This document shows positions 21,713-32,318 of a stretch of 64,000 nt of DNA, piece by piece. The translations under genes and the position numbers were made by a program. How positions within the stretch are numbered: position 1 is the stretch's first letter; each line of letters begins with the position of its first letter. The DNA lies in NCBI GenBank assembly GCA_018241685.1, contig JAFEDJ010000021.1, positions 372,001-436,000 on the forward strand, given 5' to 3'. Under the pieces are notes generated by a model. That model saw nothing but the letters and a program-made list of their open reading frames with translations, made no database searches and was not told the DNA's origin. The DNA comes from Pseudomonadota bacterium. Lineage in GTDB: Bacteria > Pseudomonadota > Gammaproteobacteria > Burkholderiales > Rhodocyclaceae.

Positions 21713-21766
21713 TGCTTTTCTTGGCGCCTGCCTACTATTTGAATTTCAAGCTTGCGTTCTATCCCC

Positions 21767-22264
21767 ATGACCAATAATCCAGTCAATCGGACTGCCGAAC
21801 CGGAGCTGCCCGGTACGACACACAGCAGGCTGAGCGCCCTGCGGCAGGTGCGCGCGTTCTCGCTTATAGCGCTCGTTGCGCTGTGCGCGTGCGAGAAAAC
21901 AGCTACCGGAGAGGATCAGTCTGAATTGCGGACTGACGTCATTAACTTCGAAAAAGCCACGGAAAACCTCCCGCCTCCAATTATTGAAGAGAAGTTCACC
22001 GAGCTCATCCGAAATTACATACCCGAAGGCACTACGTTCAGTGACGCGGAGGCATTTCTTGTCAAAGCGGGTTTCAAGCTCGACACGGACCCATACAGAA
22101 TTCCGAAGAGGGCCGGTCATCACGATCAGACACACGCATATCTTGTTATACAGCGCAACTTCTACTCGACCGCAATGGCGCATGTGTATCTGAAACCGGC
22201 AGTGCCGGGGAGCTTCGATCGGATTGGTCAAGTGACCGCCAAGATCACAATTGATTTGCCCTGA
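21767..22264 (+). CDS. Putative lipoprotein, copy 1 of 3
   Basis: A 165-residue predicted lipoprotein with no recognised family. ATG 21767 is chosen; a TTG five codons upstream is possible. The signal region is late, after about 28 polar residues: RAFSLIALVALCAC, with the last Cys as likely lipidation site (the -2 position is Cys, not typical). The mature part (about 45-165) has the segments TDVINFEKATENLPP, FTELIRNYIPEGTTFSDAEAF and RAGHHDQTHAYLV. The spacing of FSDAEAFLVKAGF recalls small periplasmic fold repeats. GC is lower than in flanking genes, which suggests transfer. It is nearly identical to copy 2. Confidence 0.75.
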   Translation: MTNNPVNRTAEPELPGTTHSRLSALRQVRAFSLIALVALCACEKTATGEDQSELRTDVINFEKATENLPPPIIEEKFTELIRNYIPEGTTFSDAEAFLVKAGFKLDTDPYRIPKRAGHHDQTHAYLVIQRNFYSTAMAHVYLKPAVPGSFDRIGQVTAKITIDLP

Positions 22265-22292
22265 AGGAGAAAATAATTCTGGGAACTGAATC

Positions 22293-22561
22293 TCACAGAA
22301 ACCCCAGGAACCCATCCGCAAACAAGGCCCCCCCACCAACCCGATGGGGATCGCCGTCCACCAGACACGCTTGGCCTTGACCAGGCCGGCCACCGAGTTG
22401 AGCAGGATCGCCACCTGCAGGAAGATCACCGCCAGACCAAAGGGGCGGCCATGCAGTTTGGCTTCGTCGCGCAGGGCCTCGAAGCCGCGGGCCTTGGCTT
22501 CGATGTCCTTCTTCTCCTGCTTGTAGCGCTCGATCTCCTTCTGGTACTCGGCGATCTTCTG
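22293..22561 (-). pseudogene. Truncated 3' part of DUF4337 gene, copy 1
   Basis: About 90 codons homologous to the end of the intact DUF4337 gene (23948-24478), cut at the repeat junction so that no start remains. A single-base deletion in the C-tract around 22327-22333 shifts the frame before the last helix. It is carried passively by the tandem duplication. Confidence 0.85.
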
Positions 22562-22593
22562 CTATTTGAATTTCAAGCTTGCGTTCTATCCCC

Positions 22594-23091
22594 ATGACCA
22601 ATAATCCAGTCAATCGGACCGCCGAACCGGAGCCGCCCGGTGCGACACGCCGCAGGCTGAGCGCCCTGCGGCAGGCGCGCGCGTTCTCGCTTATAGCGCT
22701 TGCTGCGCTGTGCGCGTGCGAGAAAACAGCTACCGGAGAGGCTCAGTCTGAATTGCGGACTGACGTCATTAACTTCGAAAAAGCCACGGGAAACCTCCCG
22801 CCTCCAATTATTAGCGAGAAGTTCACCGAACTCATCCGAAATTACATACCCGAAGGCACTACGTTCAGTGACGCTGAGGCATTTCTTGTCAAAGCGGGTT
22901 TCAAGCTCGACACGGATCCATACAGAATTCCAAAGAGGGCCGGTCATCACGATGAGACACACGCTTATCTTGTTATACAGCGCAACTTCTACTCGACCGC
23001 AATGGCGCATGTGTATCTGAAACCGGCAGTGCCAGGGAACTTCGATCGGATTGGTCAAGTGACCGCCAGCATCACAATTGATTTGCCCTGA
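22594..23091 (+). CDS. Putative lipoprotein, copy 2 of 3
   Basis: A 165-residue paralogue differing from copy 1 at a small number of positions, for example EPEPPGATRR against EPELPGTTHS near the N-terminus and IISEK against IIEEK in the middle. It has the same late lipoprotein signal (ALAALCAC). All segments of copy 1 are kept and the frame is intact, so the duplicate is probably still made. Its upstream sequence from 22562 is the same as that of copies 1 and 3, so any promoter inside the repeat would be shared. Confidence 0.75.
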   Translation: MTNNPVNRTAEPEPPGATRRRLSALRQARAFSLIALAALCACEKTATGEAQSELRTDVINFEKATGNLPPPIISEKFTELIRNYIPEGTTFSDAEAFLVKAGFKLDTDPYRIPKRAGHHDETHAYLVIQRNFYSTAMAHVYLKPAVPGNFDRIGQVTASITIDLP

Positions 23092-23119
23092 AGGAGAAAA
23101 TAATCCTGGGAACTGAATC

Positions 23120-23389
23120 TCACAGGAACCCCAGGAACCCATCCGCAAACAAGGCCCCCCCCACCAACCCGATGGGGATCGCCGTCCACCAGACACGCTT
23201 GGCCTTGACCAGGCCGGCCACCGAGTTGAGTAGGATCGCCACCTGCAGGAAGATCACCGCCAGACCAAAGGGGCGGCCATGCAGTTTGGCTTCGTCGCGC
23301 AGAGCCTCGAAGGCGCGGGCCTTGGCTTCGATGTCCTTCTTCTCCTGCTTGTAGCGCTCGATCTCCTTCTGGTACTCGGCGATCTTCTA
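23120..23389 (-). pseudogene. Truncated 3' part of DUF4337 gene, copy 2
   Basis: Same truncated fragment as in copy 1, but with one more C in the C-tract (eight rather than seven), so the last stretch stays in frame to the stop at 23120. It still has no start of its own, because the repeat junction at 23389/23390 removes the first half of the gene. Confidence 0.85.
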
Positions 23390-23421
23390 CTATTTGAATT
23401 TCAAGCTTGCGTTCTATCCCC

Positions 23422-23919
23422 ATGACCAATAATCCAGTCAATCGGACCGCCGAACCGAAGCTGCCCGGTACGACACGCCGCAGGGCGCTCAGCCTGCGGC
23501 AGGTGCGCGCGTTCTCGCTCATGGCGCTCGTTGCGCTGTGTGCGTGCGAGAAAACGACTACCGGAGAGGCTCAGTCTGAATTGCGGACTGACGTCATTAA
23601 CTTCGAAAAAGCCACGGGAAGTCTCCCGCCTTCGGTTGTCGACGAGAAGTTCACCGAGCTCATGAGGAATTACATACCCGCAGGCACTACGTTCAGTGAC
23701 GCGGAGGCGCTTCTTGCCAAAGCGGGTTTCACGATCAACACGGACCCATTCAGAGTTCCGCCGCGGGCCGGTCATCACGATCAGACACGCGCGGCTCTTG
23801 TTATAGAGCGCGGCCCTATCGCGACAGTAAGGGCGCATGTGTATCTGAACCCGGCAGAACCGGGGAACTTCGATCGGGTTGGTCGAGTGACCGCCCACAT
23901 CACAGCTGATTTGCCCTGA
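23422..23919 (+). CDS. Putative lipoprotein, divergent copy 3 of 3
   Basis: A 165-residue paralogue. The first half is close to copies 1 and 2, but the second half differs at many residues: SLPPSVVDEKFTELMRNYIP, FTINTDPFRVPPRAG and LVIERGPIATVRAHVYLNP replace the corresponding parts. The signal region has RRALSLRQ instead of RRRLSALRQ because an 8-base loop is inverted (23485-23492). The flanking DUF4337 DNA is much better conserved than this gene between copies, which points to either selection for change or gene conversion of the flank. It is adjacent to the intact DUF4337 gene. Confidence 0.75.
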   Translation: MTNNPVNRTAEPKLPGTTRRRALSLRQVRAFSLMALVALCACEKTTTGEAQSELRTDVINFEKATGSLPPSVVDEKFTELMRNYIPAGTTFSDAEALLAKAGFTINTDPFRVPPRAGHHDQTRAALVIERGPIATVRAHVYLNPAEPGNFDRVGRVTAHITADLP

Positions 23920-23947
23920 GGGAGAGCAGAATCCTGGGAACTGAATC

Positions 23948-24478
23948 TCACAGGAACCCCAGGAACCCATCCGCAAACAGCGCCACCCCCACCAACCCGA
24001 TGGGAATCGCCGTCCACCACACCCGCTTGGCCTTGACCAGGCCGGCCACCGAGTTGAGCAGGATCGCCACCTGCAGGAAGATCACCGCCAGACCAAAGGG
24101 GCGGCCGTGCAGTTTGGCTTCGTCGCGCAGGGCCTCGAAGCCGCGGGCCTTGGCCTCGATGTCCTTCTTCTCCTGCTTGTAGCGCTCGATCTCCTTCTGG
24201 TAGTCGGCGATCTTCTGCTGGTAGGCGGGCACCGCCGGGTTGTCCGGCGGCAGGGCCATGGCCTGCAGGCGGAACTGTTCCACCTGCACCTCGAACAGGT
24301 GCTGCTTGGTGCTCTTGGACTGGTAGAAAGCCCACTGGTCCGAGGCCAGCGCCTGATTGACCACCCCCTGGGTCGAGAACGACCCGCCCTTGAAGGTGGA
24401 CAGGGTCGCGCACACGGCCAGCACCACGGTGGCCAGGGACATGCCGTTGAGCCACGGCTCCTTCTTTTCTTCGCTCAT
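23948..24478 (-). CDS. DUF4337 family membrane protein, intact copy
   Basis: A 176-residue inner-membrane protein of the uncharacterised DUF4337 family. The first hydrophobic helix is GMSLATVVLAVCATLSTF (about 12-29). A charged coiled-coil with the run YQKEIERYKQEKKDIEAKAR (about 92-112) follows, then two C-terminal helices (FGLAVIFLQVAILLNSVAGL and VWWTAIPIGLVGVALFADG). The family motif DQWAFYQSKSTKQHLFE is present. It lies 48 bases downstream of the histidine-phosphatase-like gene, and its 3' half served as the right boundary of the tandem repeat. Confidence 0.88.
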   Translation of the reverse strand: MSEEKKEPWLNGMSLATVVLAVCATLSTFKGGSFSTQGVVNQALASDQWAFYQSKSTKQHLFEVQVEQFRLQAMALPPDNPAVPAYQQKIADYQKEIERYKQEKKDIEAKARGFEALRDEAKLHGRPFGLAVIFLQVAILLNSVAGLVKAKRVWWTAIPIGLVGVALFADGFLGFL

Positions 24479-24526
24479 GCTTCCAACTTTCCTTGCTGCA
24501 GATACAGGTGGCGGATCACGCCGGTT

Positions 24527-25195
24527 TCACTCGACAACGGCCGGCGCCAGGGTAGCTGCGGGTGCAGTCGCAGGTGCCAGCACCGCGCAAGCCTCGGGCA
24601 GCCCGTCCAGGCCCTGCTTTTCGACACTGAAACGGGCCACCGGCGCCTCATGGCCGGCCTGCTGCACGTGGATCACGTAGAGGCTGTCGTAATCGTCATC
24701 GGCCCACTTGGGCACCGCCTTGGGATCGGCGCCGAGGTTCTTGAGGAACAGCCGGGCCAGGGATTCGCCCCAGTGGTGCTCCCAGGCGATCACGTGGGTG
24801 CCGGCCGGCTGGGCGAGCACTTGGTGCGCCAGCGGCTTGATATCTTCCATGCCGCCGCCGAGGGTCACCGGCCTGCCGGCGCGGATCGCCAGCGGCTCGA
24901 TGGTGGCCAGCGGGCGCACATAGTTGAAGGGCACGCCCTTGTCCTTCTTCACCACCCCCGGATTGGGCGCATACACCGCGTCCGGCACCCCGAAGCGCGA
25001 CAGCAGCAGCGGCGCCAGCGCCAGCGAGCGGTTGAGCCCCTGGCAGGTCAATTGCCCCAGCCCGTCGGCGGGCTTCTCGCCGTGACGCAGGATCACGATG
25101 GTCATGTCCGCAAAGGCCGGCGCAGCCGCCAGCCCGCACACCAGCGCCAGGCCCCGCAGCGCGCTGCGCGCGGCAAGGGTTCGAAGGATCTTCAT
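24527..25195 (-). CDS. Exported histidine-phosphatase-like protein
   Basis: A 222-residue secreted protein. ATG 25195 begins a clear Sec signal peptide (ALRGLALVCGLAAAPAFA, cleavage after about residue 29). The mature chain starts with MTIVILRHGEKP, the RHG motif of the histidine phosphatase (phosphoglycerate-mutase-like) superfamily, with His38 as probable phosphoacceptor. A second conserved His could be in WEHHWGES (about 137). The frame stays open for 124 codons upstream through a 21-bp repeat array, but the signal peptide fixes the start at 25195. The substrate is unknown. It probably shares a transcript with DUF4337. Confidence 0.78.
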   Translation of the reverse strand: MKILRTLAARSALRGLALVCGLAAAPAFADMTIVILRHGEKPADGLGQLTCQGLNRSLALAPLLLSRFGVPDAVYAPNPGVVKKDKGVPFNYVRPLATIEPLAIRAGRPVTLGGGMEDIKPLAHQVLAQPAGTHVIAWEHHWGESLARLFLKNLGADPKAVPKWADDDYDSLYVIHVQQAGHEAPVARFSVEKQGLDGLPEACAVLAPATAPAATLAPAVVE

Positions 25196-25336
25196 GTGAG
25201 TCGGCCCCCATGGCAGCCCCGCCGCCGGAATGGGGCGGAGCGATTCAAGAGGCGCGATCTTCCGGGATTTTTGCCGCGAAGGACAGGGGGCCATGCGCCA
25301 TCCGGCAACCCACCCGCCGGGGTGGATATTCACTTT

Positions 25337-25537
25337 CCATTTTTCTGACCTGGAGCCCGAAGTTTCGGACTCGGCCATCGAAGTTTCGGATTCCGGATTC
25401 GAAACTTCGGACCTTGAATCCGGAACCCCGGTCCCGGCGTTCGAAACTTCGGCGGGCGGGACCGAATATTCGGCCCGAGCCCCCCGACATTCAATGACGG
25501 CCGCCGAAACTTCGGAGTCGACCACCGAAAAACGGAT
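25337..25537. repeat. 21-bp periodic array of CGAA-NN-TTCG palindromes
   Basis: Units of about 12 bases recur in strict 21-base phase at 25337, 25358, 25379, 25400, 25421, 25442, 25463, 25484/25485, 25505 and 25526. The best copies are CGAAGTTTCGGA (25358, 25379) and CGAAACTTCGGA (25400, 25505). One is the perfect palindrome CCGAATATTCGG (25462). Others are degenerate. The arms CGAA and TTCG pair around a two-base centre. Twenty-one bases is two helical turns, so all sites face the same side of DNA. The array fills the upstream region of the histidine-phosphatase-like gene. All six frames through it carry seven-residue repeats, but none looks like a real gene. Confidence 0.85.
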
Positions 25538-25568
25538 GGCATTCTCCCGTCTCCGGGAGAATGCCATC
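25528..25568 (-). terminator. Strong rho-independent terminator
   Basis: A perfect 15-base stem, GATGGCATTCTCCCG (25535-25549) and CGGGAGAATGCCATC (25554-25568), with the loop TCTC. On the minus strand it is followed by CGTTTTT, so it ends the transcript of the gene at 25624-26091 before the repeat array. Confidence 0.92.
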
Positions 25569-25623
25569 CAGGCATCGACGAGCGAATCCGAAAGGCGCTC
25601 CGGCGCCGTTCGGCAACCCGCGC

Positions 25624-26091
25624 TCAGGCCGTGGCTTCGGCCGGCTTGGCGCGACGGCCGGGATTGCGCACCAGCATCGCCTTGCGCAGGGTCTCCAGCC
25701 CCTCCCCCTTTCCGAACATCTTCATCAACGCATACCCTTCCAGCATCGCCACGAGGATGTCGCTGCCCAGCGCCGTCGTGGTGTCCTCCGCCTTCGCCAC
25801 CACCTCGCGCAAGCGCAGCAGGCGCGGCCGCAGCGCATCGAAGGCAGCGAAATCGCGCTGCACCTCGGCCACCGAAAAGCTCGGCGGCAGGATGTCCCGG
25901 TTGTGCTCCAGCACCAGCGCCGTCTGGCGACAGAACTGCTCCGACTTGTCACCCATCTTGCTGAGCGAACGCATCTCGTCGGCCGACAGGCTGATGAAGG
26001 GCGCAAAGATCTGCTCGATGGTGGTGAGCGCCTGATCCAGCGTGGCAAGGGCTTCGGCGGACAGATCGAGGGAAACGAGGTTCTGCGTCAT
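25624..26091 (-). CDS. Conserved-looking hypothetical protein
   Basis: A 155-residue, wholly alpha-helical soluble protein without signal peptide or membrane segment. Length and helical content recall phasins, but phasin motifs are not seen, so that name is not used. Recognisable runs are LPPSFSVAEVQRDFAAFDAL and AEDTTTALGSDILVAMLEGY; the second looks like a conserved core of an uncharacterised family. It is monocistronic and ends at the strong terminator 25528-25568. Function unknown. Confidence 0.75.
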   Translation of the reverse strand: MTQNLVSLDLSAEALATLDQALTTIEQIFAPFISLSADEMRSLSKMGDKSEQFCRQTALVLEHNRDILPPSFSVAEVQRDFAAFDALRPRLLRLREVVAKAEDTTTALGSDILVAMLEGYALMKMFGKGEGLETLRKAMLVRNPGRRAKPAEATA

Positions 26092-26287
26092 GGCGTGGCT
26101 CCGGGTGAGATAGGGAAGATCGCGCCGGACGAGTCCGCAAGGCGGACAGGCATCGTCGGCGCGCCGGAATATTACGATGATATTACGTCAAATGCATATA
26201 CAATCCATCGCATTTCCCCGGCCCGGCTGGACAGCGCCGACTTCTTCGACAAGCCTGTCACCAGGCTGAACACTGGACTGCAAGACG

Positions 26288-27903: not shown

Positions 27904-28098
27904 ATGTTTGTCGTGCTGTTGAACTACGTTGAGCCGTTATCCGAAGTTGATCGTTTCGTTGGAGAGCATCACCAGTTCTTGAAACGCTATTACGCAGCGG
28001 GAAATCTCCTTCTTTCGAGGCGTAAAGAACCGCGCACGGGTGACGTAATCTTTGCGACCGCAGGAACCCGTGCCGAAGTCGAGAGCATTATTCAGTAG
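27904..28098 (+). pseudogene. C-terminally truncated YciI-like duplicate
   Basis: Sixty-four codons matching the first two thirds of the intact YciI-like gene at 28901, with many silent and some amino-acid changes (MFVVLLNYVEPLSEVDRFVG against MFVVLLNYVKPLSEVDRFVG). Homology stops at IIQ, where TAG follows immediately, so the last 30 residues are missing. The DNA then becomes the C4-type locus. The truncation point is a rearrangement border. Confidence 0.8.
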
Positions 28099-28110
28099 CC
28101 GCCCCCACCC

Positions 28111-28140
28111 TTGACCTCCCCCCGCCCCCCGGTCAATACT
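28111..28140 (+). promoter_or_regulatory. Sigma-70-type promoter of the C4-like RNA
   Basis: TTGACC (28111-28116) is an excellent -35 and AATACT (28135-28140) a fair -10, with 18 bases between. TTGACC is also part of an inverted repeat with GGTCAA (28131-28136). Transcription would begin near 28147. Confidence 0.65.
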
Positions 28141-28146
28141 CCCCGC

Positions 28147-28224
28147 GTCGTCGAAACAGAGACGATCGGGGTTGGAAGCCCGAGAACCAAGGCGGACCGA
28201 TTAGCCGCGCCGCGGCTATTTTTT
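28147..28224 (+). ncRNA. C4-type antisense RNA (phage P1 C4 / P4 CI RNA class)
   Basis: Predicted ~78-nt RNA between a promoter and an intrinsic terminator (stem TAGCCGC 28202-28208 with GCGGCTA 28212-28218, then six T). It carries GGTTGGAAG (28170-28178) and GAACCAAGG (28184-28192). These are perfect complements of CTTCCAACC (28306-28314) and CCTTGGTTC (28293-28301) further down the same leader. Two short complementary blocks are the hallmark of the C4 antisense RNA family, in which the RNA binds the leader of its own transcript and shuts off the genes behind it. The family call is by eye; 5' and 3' ends are predicted. Confidence 0.72.
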
Positions 28225-28292
28225 CGTCCGTCACGCCCGTGGTGCGCCTTGATCAATGGTGGGCCGGGCGGGGAGGCTTCGGCCTGCCGGTC

Positions 28293-28347
28293 CCTTGGTT
28301 CCGGTCTTCCAACCTCGCTTTGGCCCGCCCCCCGTTTGGAAGCGAGG
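28293..28347 (+). promoter_or_regulatory. C4-RNA target with competing leader hairpins
   Basis: The target blocks are 28293-28301 and 28306-28314. The second can instead pair within the leader: CTTCCAA (28306-28312) with TTGGAAG (28336-28342), and CCTCGCTT (28313-28320) with AAGCGAGG (28340-28347). So the leader can form mutually exclusive structures depending on C4 RNA. The Shine-Dalgarno GAGGAG of the next ORF lies just downstream at 28369-28374. Confidence 0.6.
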
Positions 28348-28383
28348 GGTGGAACTGTCCAGCAAACCGAGGAGCATCACACC

Positions 28384-28515
28384 ATGGCATTTCCCGCCCT
28401 GGCGTGCGCACGTCCGCACGCATCCGCTTCGCCCCCTGCCCTGCACCCTTTCCCTGATTTCCCGACCACGCTGGGTCGGCCTGTCGTATTGTTGAGCGGG
28501 AGGGCGCCGGCATGA
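28384..28515 (+). CDS. 43-residue ORF in the icd/ash position of a C4 locus
   Basis: A small ORF, MAFPALACARPHASASPP and on, 43 residues, with a strong ribosome binding site GAGGAG 9 bases before ATG 28384. Its stop overlaps the start of the next gene as ATGA (28512-28515), so the downstream gene may be translated only if this one is. In phage P1 the icd frame has exactly this place between C4 target and ant. A longer frame through the C4 target also exists, but it lacks a start signal. The peptide has no recognised function; it may serve mainly to couple translation. Confidence 0.55.
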   Translation: MAFPALACARPHASASPPALHPFPDFPTTLGRPVVLLSGRAPA

Positions 28516-28772
28516 GTCACGCACTGAGTTTTCCGGCGCCCGGCGACGGCCTGTACAGGCTGGCCGACGACGTGGGGCGCATGACCTTGTTCGACCAGTT
28601 GTCGGCGCGCCAGCAGCAATTGCATGCGCTGCTGGCGATGACCTGCGGAGATGCGTGGGAGGTTTTCCGACAGCAGGCACCGAGCCAGCAGGAGAACTAT
28701 CTGTGGGCCTGCTCCATGATCGCGGCGGAGGCGCGGGATCTGATCGAGGCACTGCAGGCGCGGCCGGACTGA
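28512..28772 (+). CDS. Small hypothetical protein controlled by the C4 locus
   Basis: An 86-residue helical, soluble protein beginning MSHALSFPAPGDGLYRLADD, with the run FDQLSARQQQLHALLAMTCG and the C-terminal NYLWACSMIAAEARDLIEAL. It has no signal peptide and no known motif. Its start overlaps the 43-residue ORF (ATGA), making it the likely regulated product of the C4 system, in the position of the antirepressor in P1. Similar short helical proteins occur on prophages and genomic islands, so a phage-satellite origin is likely. A hairpin at 28802-28833 follows. Confidence 0.6.
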   Translation: MSHALSFPAPGDGLYRLADDVGRMTLFDQLSARQQQLHALLAMTCGDAWEVFRQQAPSQQENYLWACSMIAAEARDLIEALQARPD

Positions 28773-28801
28773 GCGCGGAAGACCACGTGCCCACTCGAAT
28801 A

Positions 28802-28833
28802 TGAATAGGCGGCCCCTTGGGGCCGCCTATTCA
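28802..28833. terminator. Perfect hairpin after the C4 locus
   Basis: A 15-base perfect inverted repeat, TGAATAGGCGGCCCC (28802-28816) and GGGGCCGCCTATTCA (28819-28833), with two bases between. There is no T-run behind it, so it may act as an RNA-stabilising or rho-assisted end rather than a classical terminator. Confidence 0.6.
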
Positions 28834-28900
28834 CCCTTCAGGCGCTCACATCTCGCCCCCTATACTCTCTCACCGCCACAAACAATCGGAGTCACCGTCC

Positions 28901-29191
28901 ATGTTCGTCGTGCTGCTGAACTACGTGAAGCCCTTATCCGAAGTCGATCGTTTCGTTGGAGAACATCGCCAGTTCCTGGAACGCCATTACGCGGCGGGGA
29001 ATTTCCTGCTCTCCGGGCGTAAAGAACCGCGTACGGGGGGCGTAATCCTCGCGACCGCAGGATCCCGTGCGGAAGTCGAGCGCATTATCCAGAGCGATCC
29101 ATTTCACCGGGAAAAGATCGCCAGCTACGAGATCGTCGAGTTCCTGCCGTCGATGTCGGCGGAGCACCTTGCCAATCTGGTCGTGCCGTAA
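28901..29191 (+). CDS. YciI-like protein, intact copy
   Basis: A 96-residue YciI-family protein (dimeric alpha/beta ferredoxin-like fold). It starts MFVVLLNYVKPLSEVDRFVG and has HRQFLERHYAAGNFLLSGRK, where the central His (about 22) is the residue usually placed in the active-site pocket of this family. The C-terminal part FHREKIASYEIVEFLP completes the fold. Enzymatic role is unknown for most members. It duplicates the truncated copy at 27904-28098; the two flank the C4 locus. Confidence 0.85.
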   Translation: MFVVLLNYVKPLSEVDRFVGEHRQFLERHYAAGNFLLSGRKEPRTGGVILATAGSRAEVERIIQSDPFHREKIASYEIVEFLPSMSAEHLANLVVP

Positions 29192-29232
29192 CCCAAACGC
29201 TCCCGAACGTCGGCTTATCCGGTCTGCAATTA

Positions 29233-29292
29233 GCGATTTTCCGGCCACGCGGGGTCGGCATGTCACCTTGTTCGGGCAGTAGGAGGAACATG
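29233..29292 (+). repeat. Remnant of a second C4-locus tail
   Basis: The translation AIFRPRGVGMSPC (from 29233) matches LISRPRWVGLSYC encoded near 28457-28492 in the C4 locus, and both are followed at once by a purine-rich ribosome binding site and ATG. The sequence after it, MTWLI and a stop, shows the next gene was lost. This is the second half of a YciI-plus-C4 duplication. Confidence 0.5.
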
Positions 29293-29302
29293 ACGTGGCT
29301 CA

Positions 29303-29308
29303 TATAAT
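29303..29308 (+). promoter_or_regulatory. Consensus -10 box directly before immA-like gene
   Basis: TATAAT at 29303-29308 lies only 7 bases from ATG 29315, so a transcript from it would start at or next to the start codon and be leaderless. No good -35 at 17 bases was seen. Confidence 0.4.
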
Positions 29309-29314
29309 TGCCCC

Positions 29315-30463
29315 ATGGAGCGCATCCAATCCATCAACCTGGCCCGTATCGACTGGTGTCTTGCCGACAGCGGCATGACGCGGGATGAACTCGCCCGCGA
29401 GGTTGATATTGGGCCGGCGATACTGGCGAAGGTGTTCGAGGGAGAAGCGGGGCTCACCTTCAAGCAGTTGCGCAGGCTTGCCACGTACTTTGGGCGCGGC
29501 ACCCTGTTCTTTCTTTCACCGGAGCCGGTCAACGAAGCGGCTGCCCATACGCCCCAATTCCGCACACTCGCTAACCAGAAGCCAGAGTTGTCGGCGCGCA
29601 TGAAGTTGTTGATAGAGCGCGTGGAGCGCCAGCGGGAAATCTATCTCGCCCTGCGGGACGAGCTCGACCCGGAGGAGGTCATCCACTTTTCGCCGCCCGA
29701 TCTGGCAGGACTCAGTGTTTCTGATGCCGCGCGTAAGGTCCGCGATTGGCTGGGGCTTGCTGATCGCAACGATTTCAACAGCTACCGGTCGGCCATCGAG
29801 GCGCGGGGCTTGCTGGTGTTCCAGAGCAACGGTTATCACGGTCAGTGGCAGATTGCCAAGGAAAGTCCGGTCCTTGGTTTCTCACTGTATGACCCGGCGT
29901 GCCCGGTGATCCTCGTCAAGAAGCAGGACTCGGATGCGCGCCAGAGTTTCACGCTGATGCATGAGCTGGGTCATCTGCTGCTGCACAAGACCAGTTCTAT
30001 CGATGACGAAGGCGACCTGCATGCGCGTGCGGGCGTCGAGCAGGAGGCCAATGCCTTTGCGGGCCAGCTGCTGGTTCCAGATGCCTTCCTTCTGAGCGTC
30101 CGGGATCTCGAGCGCCCCGACGACGTGGCCGCATACGACGAATGGCTGGCTCCGCAGCGCCGCCACTGGGGCGTGAGCGGCGAGGTCATCCTGCGTCGTT
30201 TGGTGGATGTTGGCCGGCTTTCGAAGGCTCAGTACGGTGCATACCGGCAATGGTGGGCGACACGTCAATTACCCCAAAAGACGGGCGGCAGCCGCGAGTA
30301 TCGCAATCGCGAGCCCAAGCATATTTTTGGTGATGGATATGTACGCACGGTCCTCGATGCACTCAACGCCCAGCGCATCTCCTTGGCCAAGGCAAGCACC
30401 TACCTCGACAACCTGAAGATCAGCGACCTGCACAAGCTTGAACAGCACTATGCAAGTATTTGA
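29315..30463 (+). CDS. HTH and ImmA/IrrE metalloprotease, putative antitoxin
   Basis: A 382-residue protein. Residues about 10-65 form a lambda-repressor-like helix-turn-helix (SGMTRDELAREVDIGPAILA), and about 170-290 the ImmA/IrrE zinc-protease domain with MHELGHLLLH as the HExxH motif (about 213-217) and a downstream Glu in EQEANAFAGQLLVP as third ligand. Proteins of this shape are encoded upstream of DUF4411 toxins, and the gene here overlaps the DUF4411 gene by 14 bases, typical of a coupled toxin-antitoxin pair. It probably represses its own operon and neutralises the toxin. It could also be a protease that cleaves a regulator. Confidence 0.85.
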   Translation: MERIQSINLARIDWCLADSGMTRDELAREVDIGPAILAKVFEGEAGLTFKQLRRLATYFGRGTLFFLSPEPVNEAAAHTPQFRTLANQKPELSARMKLLIERVERQREIYLALRDELDPEEVIHFSPPDLAGLSVSDAARKVRDWLGLADRNDFNSYRSAIEARGLLVFQSNGYHGQWQIAKESPVLGFSLYDPACPVILVKKQDSDARQSFTLMHELGHLLLHKTSSIDDEGDLHARAGVEQEANAFAGQLLVPDAFLLSVRDLERPDDVAAYDEWLAPQRRHWGVSGEVILRRLVDVGRLSKAQYGAYRQWWATRQLPQKTGGSREYRNREPKHIFGDGYVRTVLDALNAQRISLAKASTYLDNLKISDLHKLEQHYASI

Positions 30464-30929
30464 TGCGTCGTCCATGATCCACGCATGGGATAACTATCCC
30501 ATCGAGCAGTTTCCGGGGGTATGGAACTGGATGGCGGATCGGATGGCGCAAGGCTTGATCCAGATGTCTGAAGTGGCGGTAGAGGAAGTGGAGCACAAGG
30601 TGCCTGAGTGTGTGGAGTGGCTTAAAAATGCCGACCTGCAAAAACTGCCCGTCACCGAAGCTATATTGCTGGAGGCCATGCGTGTCAAAGCCCTACTCGG
30701 GATCGAGGAAGACCGTTACGGAAAGGGCGTCGACGAAAACGATCTCATCATCATCGCGACCGCGAAGATGAAAGGATGCGAGTTGGTGACCAACGAGGCG
30801 GTTCAGCTTTCGGGTAACAAGCAAAAGCGAAACTGGAAAATCCCGACGGTCTGCGACATGGACACTGTGCATGTTGTGTGGATCAGTTATCTCAACTATC
30901 TCAAGCGAACCGGCGCGACCTTTGGTTGA
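30450..30929 (+). CDS. DUF4411 PIN-like toxin
   Basis: A 159-residue protein of the DUF4411 family, a PIN-like nuclease group. The conserved N-terminal acidic residue is in MQVFDASSMIHAW (Asp5), the middle acidic pair in AVEEVEHKVPE and the C-terminal set in GVDENDLIIIATA, giving the Asp/Glu cluster expected for Mg2+-dependent RNA cleavage. ATG 30450 lies inside the end of the immA-like gene. Predicted to inhibit growth by cutting RNA when the partner is lost. It ends on the start of a kinase gene. Confidence 0.85.
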   Translation: MQVFDASSMIHAWDNYPIEQFPGVWNWMADRMAQGLIQMSEVAVEEVEHKVPECVEWLKNADLQKLPVTEAILLEAMRVKALLGIEEDRYGKGVDENDLIIIATAKMKGCELVTNEAVQLSGNKQKRNWKIPTVCDMDTVHVVWISYLNYLKRTGATFG

Positions 30930-32318
30930 TTCATCAAGGTGGCGCGTTTTATCAAGGAAACCTGATCTGCCGCAGCAACCATCCGTTCGACGCGATCTGC
31001 TGATCCTCTGGCTTTCCATCGCTGCGGTTGCGCTTGTGCTGGGGTGGTTGCTGCTGTTGCTCAGCCGCCAGAGCGCCGGCCCCCAGATTGCGCGGGCGCG
31101 CCAGCTGACCTCGACCAGTTGCGAGGCGCTGCAAGCGGGTGCGGTACGCATGCGTCAGCAGTTTCCGCCGGCAAACGGTCCGTCCCGTCCCATGGCTCCG
31201 GCCGCGGCACAGGCGGTGCTCGATCTGGCGCTACGCGACCAGCCGGGCATGGAGGGCGGCTTCTGGCGCGCGGATGCGGGGGTGGTGGCCTACGCCTTTC
31301 CAACCTATGACGGCACGGGAATCAAGCGCGATCCACCGAGCGCCGAACTGGAGCGCATTGCCGCCACGGCCCAGCGTGCGCAGGATTCCGCAGGCCTCGT
31401 GGCGGACGTGCGGCCGGGTTTGCGCGAGGCGGTGGCTTTCGCGGCCTGTCCCGTGGACACCGATGACCGGCGCTTGGTCGCATGGACGCTGATGCGCGTG
31501 CCGCTGTTGGCGACAGAAACGGTCAACACCTTGATCCTCGCGGTCAGCCTGCTGCTGGCGCTGGTCGTGGTCTCCGGTGCGTGGCTGGGCTGGATGATTT
31601 CGCGCTGGCAGCGTCAGTCAAGCGATCTGCGCAGGCAGCTGGCCCAGTCCGAACGCCTGGCCACGCTGGGACGCGTCTCCGCCGGGCTGGCGCACGAGAT
31701 CCGCAACCCCTTGGGCACGATGCGCATGAAGGTGGAAAACGCCTTGGCGGCACCGGCGGACTTGCGGGAGGCACGCGTGGAGGGTGCGCTGGATGCCGTG
31801 CTGTCCCAGACGGCGCGCCTGGAGACGCTGGTGTCGAGCCTGCTGGCCTTGACGCAACCGTTCCGCGCCGAGCGTCAGGCCGTCGACCTGCAGGGCTGGC
31901 TGGAGGCGCGGCGCAGCGCGCACGCCGAAGCGGCGCAAAGGCATGGCGTACGAATCACGCTGGCGCTTGAACCGGAGCTGGCCGACGCCGCAAAAGGACT
32001 CGCGCTGTTCGATCCGGTACAAATGGCCCGCGTCTTCGACAACCTGCTGCTCAACGCGCTGGCGCACACGGGAGAAGGCGGCGAGATCGAGCTCGGTGCC
32101 AGTCGCACGCGCCGCGGCGCCCTGCTGCTGTGGGTGGCAGACAATGGTTGCGGGATACCGGCCGAGCTGCGCGAGACGTTGTTCGAGCCTTTTGCCACGT
32201 CCCGTGCGGGCGGCACCGGCCTGGGGCTGGCGCTCGTGCGCGAGATCGTACAGGGCCATGGCGGGCAGGTCGCGCTCGCCGGGTCAGCCAGGGGAACACG
32301 CATTGAAATGGAGCTGCC

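Follow-up and report, generated by a model that had tools for sequence, protein, structure and literature searches.

Multi-copy C4 antisense RNA cassettes with built-in matching targets and a candidate family of small payload proteins

The locus described here lies on the forward strand of the window, by which we mean the whole stretch of 64,000 nucleotides that was analysed. It opens with a sigma-70 type promoter (TTGACC-18-AATACT, positions 28111-28140) that was already part of the original prediction and is borne out by recurrence: the motif TTGAC-N18/19-NATACT is found at the promoter place in 48 of 79 related loci compared with 1 of 1507 control stretches. The promoter is followed by an isrK-like leader RNA (28147-28224) that contains two target arms, a1 (28170-28178) and b1 (28184-28192), and a terminator stem (28202-28218) with its T-run. 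Both Rfam models relevant to this leader scored below their gathering scores, namely isrK (RF01394; 39.8 bits at 28147-28222, gathering score 50) and c4-a1b1 (RF03163; 30.4 bits at 28134-28186, gathering score 46.7), and the terminator alone carries little weight because a shuffled region is expected to contain approximately 1.1 such sites. The C4 antisense RNA itself occupies positions 28252-28335, where the Rfam C4 covariance model (RF01695) gave 62.7 bits (E 8.9e-10, gathering score 45), in agreement with the proposal of a C4-type locus. Given the location of this match, the 78-nt RNA at 28147-28224 is ruled out as the C4 RNA; its coordinates and terminator hold, and what it represents is the leader with the target. 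Two 9-nt blocks previously described as complementary to the leader are the loops of the C4 RNA, b' (CCTTGGTTC, 28293-28301) and a' (CTTCCAACC, 28306-28314), which, as read from the sequence, are perfect complements of b1 and a1, respectively. The covarying structure sought in homologues was also detected, with two-sided changes at 11 of the 16 consensus pairs among 59 sequences, and the GG ahead of the first C4 stem is invariant.

Immediately downstream of the C4 RNA, we identified a second target (28336-28372), absent from the original list of features, which consists of a2 (TTGGAAG, 28336-28342) and b2 (AACCGAGG, 28365-28372); the pairing of b2 includes one G-U, and b2 overlaps the ribosome-binding site (RBS) of a 43-aa open reading frame (28384-28515). 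This leader ORF, which resembles orf45 and presumably serves translation coupling, shares an ATGA overlap with the gene for an 86-aa protein (28512-28772), hereinafter the payload, exactly as had been predicted. The payload indeed appears to be undescribed: searches for a matching family in Pfam, NCBIfam and PHROGs and for matches in annotated phage and plasmid collections returned none, and its AlphaFold model, which consists of three helices (mean pLDDT 84), produced no match at E<=0.001 in a fold search. Phage genes were not recognised among the flanking ORFs that were run against Pfam, so that the statement that none lie nearby holds for those ORFs. The sequence features tested make the window locus a complete C4 cassette that belongs to RF01695. 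The immunity logic of the P1/P4 type that had been ascribed to it is recognisable in the C4 RNA, the loops and the targets; the gene controlled in that logic is a phage antirepressor or replication gene, and the payload matches no described family.

The cassette is embedded in variable DNA. As anticipated, a truncated copy of the YciI gene precedes it (27904-28095; Pfam YCII, PF03795, E 6.8e-4, below the Pfam cut-off) and an intact copy follows it (28901-29191; E 2.5e-13), and a remnant of the tail of a second C4 cassette, corresponding to the end of a leader ORF, is located at 29235-29272. The remnant is identical to positions 28456-28493 at 31 of 38 nucleotides, and its score of 41 was not equalled in 2000 shuffles (maximum 36). 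Comparison with the sister genome G015 showed that the two have core DNA in common at 23951-26199 and again from position 30952 onwards. Between these core blocks, only 28110-29239, that is, the cassette and the intact YciI gene, is shared in place, with the homology starting at 28110, by the promoter. The upstream DNA including the truncated YciI gene, which is 83% identical to the intact YciI gene of the sister and has no copy there at this position, is particular to the window, as is a segment missing in the sister (29240-30951) that carries genes for an HTH-ImmA/IrrE protein (29315-30463) and a DUF4411/PIN protein (30438-30929), probably a toxin-antitoxin or regulatory pair. The remnant sits at the left edge of this insert, and no counterpart of it was detected behind YciI in the sister. 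These block differences, together with the position of the remnant, show that rearrangement took place at or near C4 cassettes. Duplication of a single unit consisting of YciI and C4, as originally put forward, is thus only partly supported: the two YciI copies and the remnant are present, but the shared block comprises the cassette and the intact YciI gene. At several other loci, the homology between orthologous cassettes likewise ends shortly upstream of the promoter, with the downstream side remaining common. Elsewhere in the window, positions 21746-24478 contain about three tandem units of approximately 827 bases each with DUF4337-type genes, only the last of which runs on into the conserved flank, and positions 25210-25570 encode low-complexity repeats (strings like SEVSNPESETS) that are also found near another C4 cassette (G000:C54:43014-43151) and elsewhere in the genus.

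The window locus is one of 17 C4 loci, 16 of them above the cut-off, in its own genome (5.84 Mb, 71 contigs), a fact that lay beyond the view of the original prediction. We infer that this genome belongs to the genus Zoogloea. In the genus as a whole, there are 80 C4 loci; at least one was detected in 19 of 24 genomes, and three genomes possess between 15 and 18, among them two sister species with 15 and 18 loci. Some of the copies in the own genome have decayed: C23b lacks the promoter and leader, C71c is degenerate, and C71b has no payload. The own genome encodes 21 matches to the 86-aa family at E<=1, most of which follow a C4 RNA directly, and the comparison with other genomes that had been suggested for this protein places its relatives behind most C4 RNAs of the three C4-rich genomes. 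A few distant relatives are encoded in Acidovorax, Paraburkholderia, Hydrogenophilales, Accumulibacter and others, the one in Accumulibacter with a C4 RNA of its own. In one cassette (C65, L017:4134-4568), the ORF directly under the C4 target encodes a DUF3077 protein (PF11275, E 3.3e-8), with a member of the 86-aa family behind it; the 86-aa protein of the window itself did not match PF11275.

The coupling between leader ORF and payload is invariant. In all 41 cassettes that have such an ORF, its stop and the payload start have exactly 4 nt (ATGA) in common, with the length of the leader ORF ranging from 16 to 50 codons; in four cassettes without a leader ORF, the payload start is placed under b2. 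Changes in the leader ORF are distributed over the three codon positions without bias (53/48/47), 31 of them synonymous and 92 not, and the leader peptide shows no sign of selection. The payload accumulated 60, 36 and 161 changes at the three positions, 155 synonymous and 76 not, a pattern indicating that it is under purifying selection.

The second conspicuous property of the cassettes is the specificity of pairing. Across the genus, both arms pair with the own leader in 54 of 57 distinct loop codes compared with 1.8% of mismatched pairs, and with the own second target in 53 of 57 codes compared with 2.6% of non-cognate pairs, the second target being the less discriminating, with the cognate partner the best in only 11 of the 57 codes. 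For the 17 loci of the own genome, the predicted C4-leader duplexes average -28.5 kcal/mol for cognate and -20.5 kcal/mol for non-cognate pairs, the pair from the window being the strongest of all (-38.3 kcal/mol), and the cognate leader is the best partner in 13 of 15 intact cassettes. Because cognate pairing is best in most intact copies, the copies show a change of specificity and possibly an avoidance of cross-talk. Loops and targets, as the comparison of codes indicates, change together; in the near-alike cassettes C66/C18 and in the G006_C185 pair, a1, a' and a2 have all been switched in concert. Gene conversion is unlikely to be the simple cause of such switches, judging from the G006_C185 pair, in which a1, a' and a2 differ and the intervening b' is the same.

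Each a'/b' code is unique within its genome, without duplicates in any genome. Of the pairs with at least 85% payload identity, none of five within a genome shares a code compared with 13 of 33 between genomes. This uniqueness is no more than suggestive, given that codes also change between species: among orthologues with at least 95% identical payloads, about half of the interspecies pairs have switched; with the numbers of recent duplicates as small as they are, we set it aside as proof of incompatibility.

The same observations bear on two alternative views of the cassettes. One is that they are decaying, now functionless relics of prophage or satellite immunity regions, as might be surmised from the degenerate copies C71c and C23b and from several relatives outside Zoogloea that adjoin an integrase, an int-alpA RNA or a tRNA. 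Such decay is difficult to reconcile with purifying selection on the payload, with the coordinated changes of loops and targets, and with a leader-to-target region that hardly changed between two species; we therefore regard it as improbable. The other view, which follows from the known immunity logic of P1, P7 and P4, is that the host keeps a library of C4 RNAs, each silencing incoming phages or satellites with a matching leader. The many different codes per genome would be in keeping with such a library, and phage targeting was raised by Weiss et al. as one possibility for Acinetobacter baumannii (PMC5320573). However, for three codes of the own genome, IMG/VR contained no contig with a matching target in a recognisable C4 context, the 240 pattern matches in IMG/VR approximate the chance expectation, and intact copies come with a target and a payload of their own, both dispensable for a locus that served immunity alone; a library of this kind accordingly seems very unlikely.

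Analysis of 300 genomes drawn from the order Burkholderiales revealed C4 RNAs in 45, including at least 14 in G119, a member of another family of the order. The 12 parseable cassettes of G119 have unique codes, the own leader is the best partner in all 12, and the duplexes average -30.4 for cognate and -19.2 for non-cognate pairs. The payloads are unrelated to the 86-aa family by HMM comparison, so that G119 is, on these comparisons, an independent amplification under the same pairing rules with other payloads. Five of its loci (L163, L165, L171, L173 and L174) contain a second small conserved ORF (MAELHRCPTPPKLT-like) behind the C4-controlled ORF.

With regard to neighbouring genes, five C4 cassettes in G000 have anti-phage defence genes no more than about 4 kb upstream: Shedu with an OLD-like ATPase (L012), an RT-Toprim single-gene system (L013), Kiwa (L014), PDC-S18 (L009), and BstA-like together with TIR PDC-S35 (L017). 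Defence genes lie near at least 5 of 16 loci of the own genome. Random control regions also contained a type I restriction system, and in G119 a defence gene (PifA) is present at one locus only; hence we claim no enrichment and no general link between C4 RNAs and anti-phage defence.

Taken as a whole, the architecture of these loci makes regulation by the C4 RNA well supported at the level of sequence, and the cassette is expected to function in the manner of the P1/P4 and isrK switches. We consider it quite likely that each intact copy is a self-silencing cassette that controls its payload. By analogy with P1, P4 and Gifsy-1, there would be one promoter, with part of the transcripts stopping at the leader terminator and the read-through transcripts giving rise, by processing, to a C4 RNA of about 84 nt. 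The a'/b' loops of this RNA would pair with a1/b1 of newly made leaders, favouring early termination, and with a2/b2 over the leader-ORF RBS, blocking translation of the leader ORF, as in the same three systems. The payload would then remain untranslated because it starts inside the leader-ORF stop, and the cell would produce the 86-aa protein only in the absence or scarcity of C4, that is, upon entry into a naive cell or upon loss or dilution of C4.

What the payload does can be suggested only tentatively. We lean, at somewhat less than even confidence, to an effector acting on growth or on resident elements and kept by selfish persistence, either addiction-like or heteroimmune; such persistence would select for each copy having an a'/b' code of its own. 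Under the same C4 control, the 86-aa protein could instead be an antirepressor-type switch, similar to AnrP or Ant, that acts on resident prophages or islands and is not a self-contained addiction effector. In this connection, the payload occupies the place of AnrP behind orf45 (PMC4825925), and distant relatives are encoded in integrative elements and on two viral contigs; in the vicinity of the window locus we recognised neither a repressor nor a prophage, and on balance a switch of this type appears rather unlikely. Returning to the self-silencing cassette with an effector payload, a broader and more doubtful extension is that multi-copy chromosomal C4 cassettes of some Betaproteobacteria behave like incompatibility groups, each silencing only its own payload, so that codes must diverge after duplication and a copy, along with the adjoining variable DNA (in several cases anti-phage), becomes hard to lose.

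C4 RNAs have been known as phage immunity factors since 1990. The window locus shares with P1/P7 C4 and the CI RNA of satellite P4 (RF01695) the C4 fold, the a'/b' loops and the targets upstream and downstream, and differs in having no recognised adjoining phage genes, a payload without a family and many copies per genome. If the proposed control is correct, DUF3077 would be a further small protein under C4 control, in C65. In the cassettes described here, the targets lie in the same cassette as the antisense RNA, and dozens of natural variants show all three shifting specificity together. Questions of RNA orthogonality and heteroimmunity can thereby be addressed by simple swaps, and a new small-protein family gains a regulatory context. 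Multi-copy C4-like RNAs as such are already known from A. baumannii AB5075, whose 21 C4-like 'Group 1' sRNAs were published in 2016 with no targets assigned; C4-like RNAs of this species are expressed and seem to be processed (PMC5320573). That genome likewise combines many C4-like RNAs with a variable a' loop; its targets were left open, whereas intact copies here carry a matching leader and downstream target and mostly a payload. The novelty lies in cassettes that occur in many copies and bring their own matching targets, in codes that change in a coordinated way, in an ATGA coupling that does not vary, and in the payload family. The closest parallel to the layout and its coupling is isrK-orf45-anrP of the Salmonella prophage Gifsy-1, in which a short, terminator-bearing leader RNA is followed by a stable RNA and an ORF of about 45 codons whose stop overlaps the payload start (AUGA). 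There, the short IsrK RNA activates anrP in trans, translation of orf45 is needed for anrP, and orf45 is conserved in nucleotide sequence and not in amino acid sequence (PMC4825925). The Gifsy-1 arrangement was reported from a single prophage, where the payload is a predicted antirepressor, whereas here one genome has 17 C4 loci and the payload is undescribed.
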